Positions 45,224 to 48,635 of a DNA stretch of 64,000 nucleotides are shown here, piece by piece. Within the stretch, counting starts at the first letter, position 1, and each line of letters opens with the position of its first letter. Made by a program: the position numbers and the translations under genes. The notes under the pieces are model-generated. The model ran no database searches. It was not told the DNA's origin and saw only the letters and a program-made list of their open reading frames with translations. Source of the DNA: Candidatus Bipolaricaulota bacterium (GTDB taxonomy: Bacteria > Bipolaricaulota > Bipolaricaulia > UBA7950 > UBA9294). The stretch spans positions 124,001-188,000 of the forward strand of contig JANQGM010000040.1 in the NCBI GenBank assembly GCA_028277345.1, written 5' to 3'.

Positions 45224-45700
45224 TCAGCGCGTCACTAGCCAAACAACGAGGACGATCAACGCGAGTCCGCTCAGCAACCATAGAAAGACTTTTCCACTCA
45301 AGCCACGAAGCCGCTTCTTCTCCTCGGCATTGAACGAGGTTTTGTGTGGCTTCTTGATGGCCAGTCGCTGGGATTTCTTGTAGGTCTTGACGTACAACGA
45401 CATCTTCTTCTGGCGGCGGTAGACGACGGCCAGATTGTGCATGGCATTGACGTAGTTCGGATCCATCTCCAACGCGCGATTGTAGGCGTATTCCGCCCGA
45501 GCCAGATCGTCACCGTCAACATAGACATTGCCGAGCCGATAGTAGATCTTGGCCTTCTCAATGCCGTAGCGCAGGGCCTCAACCAAGATGGAAATCGCTT
45601 CTCCGAATTCCTTCTTCTTTCGAAGCGCTTCCGCTTTCACGAGGGACTCCTCGACAAAGGCGGCTTGTTCGTCATGCGTCTTTAGCTCGTCGGTACTCAT
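45224..45700 (-). CDS. TPR-repeat protein with C-terminal membrane anchor
   Basis: A 158-aa protein with two to three tetratricopeptide-like repeats (LVEALRYGIEKAKIYYRLGNVYVDG; LARAEYAYNRALEMDPNYVNAMHNLAVVYRRQ) and a single hydrophobic C-terminal segment of about 20 residues (FLWLLSGLALIVLVVWLV), so a tail-anchored scaffold on the cytoplasmic face is likely. It overlaps the uracil-DNA glycosylase gene by 29 nt. The partner is unknown. Confidence 0.75.
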   Translation of the reverse strand: MSTDELKTHDEQAAFVEESLVKAEALRKKKEFGEAISILVEALRYGIEKAKIYYRLGNVYVDGDDLARAEYAYNRALEMDPNYVNAMHNLAVVYRRQKKMSLYVKTYKKSQRLAIKKPHKTSFNAEEKKRLRGLSGKVFLWLLSGLALIVLVVWLVTR

Positions 45701-46286
45701 CGATCCATTTACTCACTTTCTGTATATCCAACCAGGTCAAGTATTTCGGACTCCCCTTCTCGCGCGACGGGTTACGCAACAGATAACTGGGATGAAACAT
45801 CGGGAAAAGCAAGATGCCCCCACGCCACGAGTAGAAACTGCCATGTGACTTCGTGATTCCGGGGATATCCGGCATCAGCCACTGCGTTGACGTATTCCCC
45901 AGCGTCACGATCAGCGCCGGCTTGATGAAGGCAATCTGCGATTCGAGGTACGGAAAGCACGCTTCCATCTCCGCTCGATTCGGCACGCGGTTTCCGGGAG
46001 GCCGGCACTTCACGATATTGCCAATGTAGACCGTCTCTCGCGCAATGTTGACGGAGGCCAGCACGTCATCCAGCTTCTGTCCCGCCGGGCCGACGAACGG
46101 TCGGCCGGTTTGATCTTCGACTTCCCCAGGACCTTCGCCGATCAATAGCACATCGGCGTCGGGGTTCCCTTCGCCGAACACCACATTCGAACGCGTTTCG
46201 GCAAGCGGGCACTGAGTGCAGGAAAGCACACGCGGCCGAAGCGCATCGAGTGACACCTGTGCAGCGGATTGTTGGGCGTCCTGCAT
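45672..46286 (-). CDS. udg: Uracil-DNA glycosylase, type 4 (Fe-S)
   Basis: A 204-aa repair enzyme removing uracil from DNA. Fe-S ligands are Cys23, Cys26, Cys94 and Cys110, and the catalytic motif is GEGPGEVEDQTGRPFVGPAGQ-like, where most type-4 enzymes have GEAPG. The second motif HPSYLLRNP is intact. ATG 46286 follows AAAGGAAA; the longer frame reaches into the tRNA-Gly upstream. Type-4 enzymes are common in thermophiles and deep-branching bacteria. Confidence 0.93.
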   Translation of the reverse strand: MQDAQQSAAQVSLDALRPRVLSCTQCPLAETRSNVVFGEGNPDADVLLIGEGPGEVEDQTGRPFVGPAGQKLDDVLASVNIARETVYIGNIVKCRPPGNRVPNRAEMEACFPYLESQIAFIKPALIVTLGNTSTQWLMPDIPGITKSHGSFYSWRGGILLFPMFHPSYLLRNPSREKGSPKYLTWLDIQKVSKWIDEYRRAKDA

Positions 46287-46334
46287 ATCGTTTCCTTTAC
46301 GGGAAAACCGAGACAACCGACGTTTCGAACCAAA

Positions 46335-46406
46335 AGCGGGCAACGGGATTCGAACCCGCGACCCTCAGCTTGGGAAGCTGATGCTCTACCACTGAGCTAT
46401 GCCCGC
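46335..46406 (-). tRNA. tRNA-Gly (anticodon CCC)
   Basis: Minus-strand cloverleaf of 72 nt. The acceptor GCGGGCA pairs with TGCCCGC, the D-arm is AGCTCAGTGGTAGAGC, the anticodon loop TTCCCAA lies in a TCAGC/GCTGA stem, and the T-arm contains GTTCGAATC. The discriminator is U73, as expected for bacterial tRNA-Gly. The 3' CCA is not encoded. Confidence 0.97.
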
Positions 46407-46444: not shown

Positions 46445-47623
46445 TCAGACGCGAAGCGCTTCAAGCGCTGACATTGTCTTGCCCCTCAAAAGCGCGAGGC
46501 AAGCGCCACCCCCTGTTGAGATATATGAGGCCTGATCTGCAAAGCCGAATCGCTCCATCGCTTCGCCGGTTTCTCCGCCTCCGATGACGCTGTAGGCGTC
46601 TCCCCGGGCAATCACAGCCCCGATGCACCGCGTTCCTTCAGAAAAAGCCGGGAACTCATAGGCGCCCATCGGTCCTGTCCACACGATGGTTTTCGCCTCG
46701 GTGATGCGTTGGCCAAAGGCCTCGACCGTCTGGGGCCCAATATCGAACCCGTGCCATCCTGCCGGGATTTCGTTGACAGGGTAGATTTCGGCGTCACCCT
46801 CGTTCGAAAGCTCGGGTGCCGCGACCACATCGATGGGGAGGTAAATGGCCGTCCCCTCACGTTCCGCGATTCGGCGGATTTCTTGAACCTCGTCCAGCAC
46901 CTTGTGATCGACCACCGAGGCGCCGACGTCGATGCCCAGCGCATGCAGGAACGTCATGGCCACGCCGCCGCCGATCATGATTTCATCGACCTGCGCGGCC
47001 AGATCGTGCAAAGGCCCCAGCTTGCTCTGTGCCTTCTTCCCTCCCACGATGGCTGCATAAGGGCGATCCGGAGAAGCGATTAGCGGGGTTAGCGCGTCGA
47101 TTTCCTTTTGAACGAGGAAGCCGGCGTAGGCCGGCAGATGATCGGCAACACCGACGGTCGATGCATGGGCGCGATGCATTGTCGCAAAGGCATCGTTCAC
47201 AAACAGGTCGGCGAGATCGGCCAATTGATGGGTAAACGCCGGTTCGTTGGTTGTCTCCTCGCGATAGAACCGCAGGTTCTCTAGAAGAAGAACATCGCCA
47301 GGGGCGCTCGCCGCGATGGCTTCGGCGACCGACACGCCAATACAGTCATCAAGCTTCCGTACTGGAGCGCCCAATAACCCAGATAGGACGTCGGCCACAG
47401 GATCGAGCCGGAGTGCGTCAACGACCCGCCCTTCCGGACGTCCCAAATGCGACATGACGACCGATATGGCGCCCTGTTCTCGTAGCCATCGGAGGGTGGG
47501 CAGCGATGCCTGGATTCGCCGATCGTCAAGTACGCGACCATCGTTCAGCGGCACGTTGTAATCCACTCGAACCAGCACGGTTCGCTTTGCAACCTCTGCA
47601 TCCTGCAGTTTCCGGAGTTCCAC
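46445..47623 (-). CDS. pgk: Phosphoglycerate kinase
   Basis: A 392-aa glycolytic/gluconeogenic enzyme (1,3-bisphosphoglycerate + ADP to 3-phosphoglycerate + ATP). Motifs: VLVRVDYNVPLNDGRVLDDRRI, SHLGRPEGR, and the nucleotide-binding GGGETGEAMERFG with VSTGGG-like ISTGGGACLALLRG. I prefer the GTG at 47623, 6 nt after GGAGG; the in-frame ATG at 47650 gives an N-terminus longer than usual. It shares a palindromic -10 box with the divergent gene at 47703. Confidence 0.95.
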   Translation of the reverse strand: MELRKLQDAEVAKRTVLVRVDYNVPLNDGRVLDDRRIQASLPTLRWLREQGAISVVMSHLGRPEGRVVDALRLDPVADVLSGLLGAPVRKLDDCIGVSVAEAIAASAPGDVLLLENLRFYREETTNEPAFTHQLADLADLFVNDAFATMHRAHASTVGVADHLPAYAGFLVQKEIDALTPLIASPDRPYAAIVGGKKAQSKLGPLHDLAAQVDEIMIGGGVAMTFLHALGIDVGASVVDHKVLDEVQEIRRIAEREGTAIYLPIDVVAAPELSNEGDAEIYPVNEIPAGWHGFDIGPQTVEAFGQRITEAKTIVWTGPMGAYEFPAFSEGTRCIGAVIARGDAYSVIGGGETGEAMERFGFADQASYISTGGGACLALLRGKTMSALEALRV

Positions 47624-47665
47624 CACGAGCCTCCAATCTCCCTGTCCCATTCGCTGAAAACTCTA

Positions 47666-47694
47666 TTGAATGCCCATCTGAAGGGGATTATAAT
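47666..47694 (+). promoter_or_regulatory. Promoter of the LolA-like gene, leaderless
   Basis: TTGAAT (47666-47671), 17-bp spacer, TATAAT (47689-47694), then 8 nt to ATG 47703, with no Shine-Dalgarno. Confidence 0.75.
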
Positions 47695-47714
47695 GCTCCT
47701 CGATGAACAGTCAA
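47687..47714 (-). promoter_or_regulatory. Promoter of pgk, overlapping the opposite promoter
   Basis: Minus-strand TTGACT (47714-47709), 16-bp spacer, TATAAT (47692-47687). The -10 lies in the palindrome ATTATAAT (47687-47694), which also provides the -10 of the plus-strand gene. The -35 overlaps the first codons of the plus-strand gene. Confidence 0.65.
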
Positions 47715-48635
47715 ACTGGGGTTCTTCTTGCTATCGGCGCCTTTGTTGCGCTCATTGTCACGGTTGCGGCCGTGGACCAGTATCTCTTGGATGAGCATCC
47801 GCCAACTGAGGTCGACGGCCTCATGTGGCGTGTCGAGAACGCGTTCAACCGAATCCAAGACCTTGAGGCAACGCTTCAGGTCACAAGCGAATATCAACCG
47901 GCTGAGAACGTACGAATGAAGGTTCGCTATATCAAGGGACCGCCTTCGTTGCTTTCCATGCGATACGTTCCGCCCCAAGATGCCGATGAGGAGCTGTTCA
48001 TCGCCGCCGTGCGAGATGAGACCTTCACGGTTCAGAACGATCAGCTCTTTCACTACTTGCCAAGCGAGGACATTGTGGTCAGCAAGCGTTGGCCGGGGCT
48101 TCCTCTCGTTGCCGTTGGATTGGGAATCTTCGATGTCGGTCAAATCCGTGCCGATTGGCTGGCCGGCAAGACGGACGTTCGCATTCTTCAAAATATCGCC
48201 GGCTTTTCTGGGTTCTCATTTGCATCACACATGACGGGATTCGACTCCTTCAGCGAGCCTCCCCTTGAAACAGAAAACGTATTCTCAGGACTTGGATTTC
48301 CGTCTCAAGCCTACTCGCTTTGCCTTTCCCTTTGCCCGGATGACGCCGAAGAACATCCCATGCTTTCATTGCGAATCGCTCAAACCATTGAACCGGAAAG
48401 TCAGGGAACGCTGCCCAGCAGCTACATTCTTGAGGTTCGCAATGCGTCGACCGCCAATCTCGTTCGGATGGTTTGGATTGACCGCGATACCTATCTCATT
48501 CAGAAGGTCATCGTGTTTGAGAACGGCCAGCGGAGCGCGACATTGCTTGTCCAGCTTCTAACCGTCGACCAAGGATTAACCGAATCCGAGGTTATCCCAC
48601 CCCCGCAAATCGGCGTCGAAAACGTCCGTGGTTAA
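47703..48635 (+). CDS. LolA/outer-membrane-lipoprotein-sorting-like protein with N-terminal anchor
   Basis: A 310-aa protein. The N-terminus has one hydrophobic segment (VLLAIGAFVALIVTVAAV) without a lipobox, then a domain whose pattern (helix with MWRVENAFNRIQDLEATLQVTSEYQ, then strands VRMKVRYIKGPPSLLSMRY, ELFIAAVRDETFTVQNDQLFHYLP) resembles the LolA/MucB half-barrel that holds a lipid. It is longer than LolA itself. Expression starts from a strong leaderless promoter. It is convergent with the DUF151 gene; the two stop codons overlap by 4 nt. Lipid carriage is inferred from fold pattern only. Confidence 0.6.
   Translation: MNSQTGVLLAIGAFVALIVTVAAVDQYLLDEHPPTEVDGLMWRVENAFNRIQDLEATLQVTSEYQPAENVRMKVRYIKGPPSLLSMRYVPPQDADEELFIAAVRDETFTVQNDQLFHYLPSEDIVVSKRWPGLPLVAVGLGIFDVGQIRADWLAGKTDVRILQNIAGFSGFSFASHMTGFDSFSEPPLETENVFSGLGFPSQAYSLCLSLCPDDAEEHPMLSLRIAQTIEPESQGTLPSSYILEVRNASTANLVRMVWIDRDTYLIQKVIVFENGQRSATLLVQLLTVDQGLTESEVIPPPQIGVENVRG

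Follow-up and report, generated by a model that had tools for sequence, protein, structure and literature searches.

The window analysed here is a stretch of 64,000 nt from a Candidatus Bipolaricaulota genome, in which two genes diverge from a short intergenic region. The minus strand carries pgk, encoding phosphoglycerate kinase (46445-47623; Pfam PF00162, E 2.6e-137), and the plus strand carries a gene for a LolA/RseB-like protein with an N-terminal membrane helix (47703-48635), assigned from homologues, a structure model and fold matches. The window protein has no Pfam match, and the best Pfam LolA_like hit, seen in 4 of 31 family members, has an E of 0.026; there is no significant match to a LolA sequence model and the protein is therefore named LolA-like, not LolA. 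A Foldseek search with the predicted structure gave LolA (best E 2.6e-8) and RseB (1.6e-7), which points to a LolA/RseB-type fold, in a model with a mean pLDDT of 69.6 where residues 165-237 are unreliable.

The start of pgk is probably the GTG at 47623-47621 and not the upstream ATG at 47650, because the GTG follows a Shine-Dalgarno sequence, GGAGG (47630-47634, minus strand), at the appropriate spacing of 6 nt. Similar motifs of the GGAGG type precede pgk in many relatives. Just downstream of pgk and on the same strand is a tRNA-Gly(CCC) gene (46335-46406). The listed frame for uracil-DNA-glycosylase (45672-46343) overlaps the end of this tRNA gene, and its true start is for that reason probably further in.

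An earlier note on this DNA had proposed that a single palindromic -10 box serves both divergent genes, and the elements that it described are all present. The palindrome ATTATAAT at 47687-47694 gives TATAAT on both strands (plus hexamer 47689-47694, minus hexamer 47692-47687). On the plus strand it is preceded by the -35 element TTGAAT (47666-47671) with a spacer of 17, and the LolA-like ATG follows 8 nt after the -10 element, at 47703. On the minus strand the -35 element TTGACT (47714-47709), located within codons 3-4 of the LolA-like gene, precedes it with a spacer of 16. When 3.5 kb was scanned with the E. coli sigma70 consensus, which may not be that of the host, the two promoters scored 10/12 and 11/12 and were the top two sites. 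The same 3.5 kb has four promoter-like sites where 1.4 were expected. The -10 elements of the two strands overlap, and sequence and conservation together indicate elements usable in each direction.

The palindrome at this site is far beyond chance. Dinucleotide shuffles give an expectation of 0.16 palindromes per 64,000-nt window, and the only copy of ATTATAAT in the 2.76-Mb genome from which the window comes is the one between pgk and the LolA-like gene. In ten genomes of the family it is the sole copy in the assembly. With one mismatch allowed there are 2 sites in the window compared with 6 expected.

The distance of 8 nt from the plus -10 to the ATG places the predicted rightward start at 47701-47703, and the position of the minus -10 places the predicted start of pgk transcription at 47679-47680, so that the two transcripts would begin 21-24 bp apart. 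The leader of the pgk mRNA would then be of the conventional kind, about 56 nt long and with GGAGG ahead of the GTG. A tiny frame, ATG GGC ATT CAA TAG (MGIQ*, 47677-47663, minus strand), begins 2-3 nt after the predicted leader start; similar frames are found in some relatives within the genus but not family-wide, and it is probably incidental.

The LolA-like mRNA is apparently leaderless, with a predicted leader of 0-2 nt because of the 8-nt gap, which is the same in 31/31 loci and leaves no room for a Shine-Dalgarno sequence (5-9 nt was taken as the leaderless range). In the window's own genome (G000), TATAAT is found 5-9 nt before an ATG 21 times, compared with 3 in a reversed control, an enrichment of about seven-fold, and nine of those that were inspected open frames of at least 150 codons. 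Leaderless genes may therefore be ordinary in this genome.

The family to which the genome belongs was represented by 33 genomes of uncultured Bipolaricaulota from 13 genera, and the site could be read in 31 of them, spanning 12 genera. A search of named genomes with the LolA-like alignment found mostly metagenome-assembled genomes labelled Candidatus Bipolaricaulota (or Acetothermia) and a few with other or no lineage labels. In 31 of the 33 family genomes ATTATAAT is followed by an ATG after exactly 8 nt, always at the pgk/LolA-like locus, and it is identical letter for letter in all 31. A true loss in the two others (G011 and G031) was rejected, since these assemblies, with a completeness of about 70% and 67%, contain neither pgk nor the LolA-like gene. 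A close relative with both genes but without the palindrome had been named as the finding that would speak against a shared box; none of the 31 family genomes is of this kind, and conservation strongly supports one -10 element for the two genes.

When the intergenic region was footprinted without gaps and with weighting by genus, the eight columns of the palindrome were invariant, and the adjacent columns held about 0.3-0.8 bits. TTGAA and ATTATAAT stand out from the drifting DNA, as do the start codon and, for the minus -35, its CAA. The plus -35 begins with TTG in 31/31 loci, with a spacer of 17 in 30 and of 18 in one. The minus -35 also has TTG in all 31 and TTGA in 28, and is weak in genus g9 (TTGCCC). 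The locus pattern behind the footprint, the glutamine codon usage and the -35 counts required CAA at codon 4; judged by locus sets made without that requirement, no locus had been lost.

Each strand of the box has positions that the other does not use. The minus -10 element alone needs A47687 and T47688, as its positions -7 and -8, and A47693 and T47694 serve the plus -10 alone; none of the four varies. The coding sequence that holds the pgk -35 is also constrained. All 31 family loci, and both of those from the sister family f2, encode Gln4 of the LolA-like gene as CAA, while CAA makes up 10-49% of glutamine codons, depending on the genus. Among 38 positions with a conserved amino acid, none but Gln4 keeps to one codon; Gln290, for instance, is mixed (13 CAA, 16 CAG). 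In 28 of the 31 genes aligned, T is the last base of codon 3. A preference for A and T around the start codon was considered as the source of CAA and rejected, as the adjoining codon 2 favours AAC or AGC; where it encodes Asn it is AAC in 20 of 21 genes, so the T of codon 3 and the CAA follow the TTGA of the minus strand and not a general start-codon bias. Protein identity between genera is 30-45%, and silent sites would therefore have had time to change. The pgk -35 thus appears to have frozen the LolA-like gene at its first codons, and the invariant palindrome together with the frozen CAA suggests that both strands of the -10 element are under selection.

These observations bear on a simpler reading, in which only the rightward promoter of the LolA-like gene is real, the minus TATAAT is a by-product of near-symmetry and pgk is transcribed from elsewhere. 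TATAAT is indeed nearly self-complementary. However, this reading gives 47687-47688 no role although they are invariant, and it leaves codon 4 frozen as CAA. Elsewhere in the same genome, no TATAAT at 5-9 nt from a following ATG has AT in front of it, and the 3.5 kb scanned contains no better minus promoter. We regard a rightward promoter on its own as highly improbable.

A perfect palindrome so scarce in the rest of the genome might instead serve as an operator to which a dimeric regulator binds, in overlap with one promoter or two, and in one genome (L012) it extends to a perfect inverted repeat of 22 bp, TCAGATGATTATAATCATCTGA. Conservation in the family nevertheless ends sharply at 8 bp, symmetry beyond these is not consistently above that of shuffled sequences (the second flank is marginal), and the two -35 elements are kept at distances proper to a promoter. 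In the sister family the symmetry is broken at a base that a -10 element tolerates. An operator is for these reasons a very unlikely explanation.

The palindrome is lost only beyond the family, in f2 and f4. The sister family has AGTATAAT in its place, with TTGAAT-17 or TTGTAT-17-TATAAT rightward and TTGACC or TTGATT-17-TATACT leftward; it thus breaks the palindrome at a tolerant position and retains predicted promoters that would be usable both ways. In f4 a LolA-like gene that is a homologue by profile comparison (probability 97.2%) likewise diverges from pgk across a short intergenic region, where the footprints of polymerase should overlap, but there are two separate -10 elements and not one shared: TTGNNN-17-TAGAAT for pgk in seven loci and, some 6 nt upstream of the LolA-like start, a TATNAT-like box. 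The conserved pgk promoter in f4 (for example L035, L038 and L045) overlaps the LolA-like promoter without a common -10. No LolA-like gene was found in families f3, f7 and f8 in the search of the class. As far as these sequences tell, the gene pair is more widely spread than the shared box.

The site is very probably a bidirectional promoter of the sigma70 (housekeeping) type, with one palindromic -10 element read on either strand. From the left -35 polymerase would fire rightward and produce the leaderless LolA-like mRNA, and from the right -35, inside the LolA-like coding sequence, it would fire leftward and produce the pgk mRNA with its short leader and Shine-Dalgarno sequence. Transcription in both directions, the start positions and the presence of one polymerase at a time are what we infer from this arrangement, and the strength of either direction is beyond what conservation can tell.

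That polymerase would occupy only one direction at any instant, as the earlier note held, follows from the geometry of the site, and occupancy is described as mutually exclusive for bidirectional promoters of this kind (PMC12825309). It is about an even chance that competition between polymerases is negligible here and that the site persists as a compact layout, with little way out after the pgk -35 has come to lie in LolA-like codons. This reading concerns function and is compatible with a bidirectional promoter, and the overlap of the pgk -35 with these codons would suffice to lock the layout. Genes for phosphoglycerate kinase are usually highly expressed, which speaks against negligible competition, as does the closeness of both promoters to consensus; since both sites are near consensus, competition between pgk and LolA-like transcription is plausible. 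Five bidirectional promoters of E. coli show no substantial competition because basal transcription is too low, but competition arises once activity is raised or one side is activated (PMC12825309).

Bidirectional promoters of prokaryotes, a class recognised only lately, have been described by Warman, Grainger and co-workers as common and basally weak, and these authors speculate that recently acquired DNA is richer in them (PMC12825309, PMC10268837). Earlier cases of a shared -10 come from E. coli and Salmonella. The present site is like these in that one -10 element is read on both strands between flanking -35 elements and divergent genes, and its predicted starts, about 21-24 bp apart, can be set beside the distances of 10, 18 and 23 bp that are common in those reports. 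It differs in its perfect consensus palindrome, invariant throughout the family, in its near-consensus -35 elements both ways, in having one -35 in the codons of the other gene and in being apparently leaderless on one side. The examples tested by those authors have low basal activity, whereas the sites here are near consensus. A literature search gave nothing relevant on promoters in Bipolaricaulota and no papers on conserved overlapping -10 elements.

What makes the site noteworthy is the depth of conservation, the near-consensus strength in both directions and the apparently leaderless LolA-like mRNA. The site also offers a defined short target for the study of polymerase competition at near-consensus strength. 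The shared -10 might represent a long-lived balance, in which opposing near-consensus promoters compete, the output of pgk, a core glycolytic gene, varies inversely with that of an envelope protein that handles lipoproteins, and selection has maintained this relation through the diversification of the family, but this is a tentative and rather doubtful extension. At the level of sequence, the locus is a case of a probable bidirectional promoter that has been kept intact family-wide, strongly enough for a silent codon position of the adjoining gene to be frozen, and the comparison of genomes speaks for a contribution of both directions to fitness.
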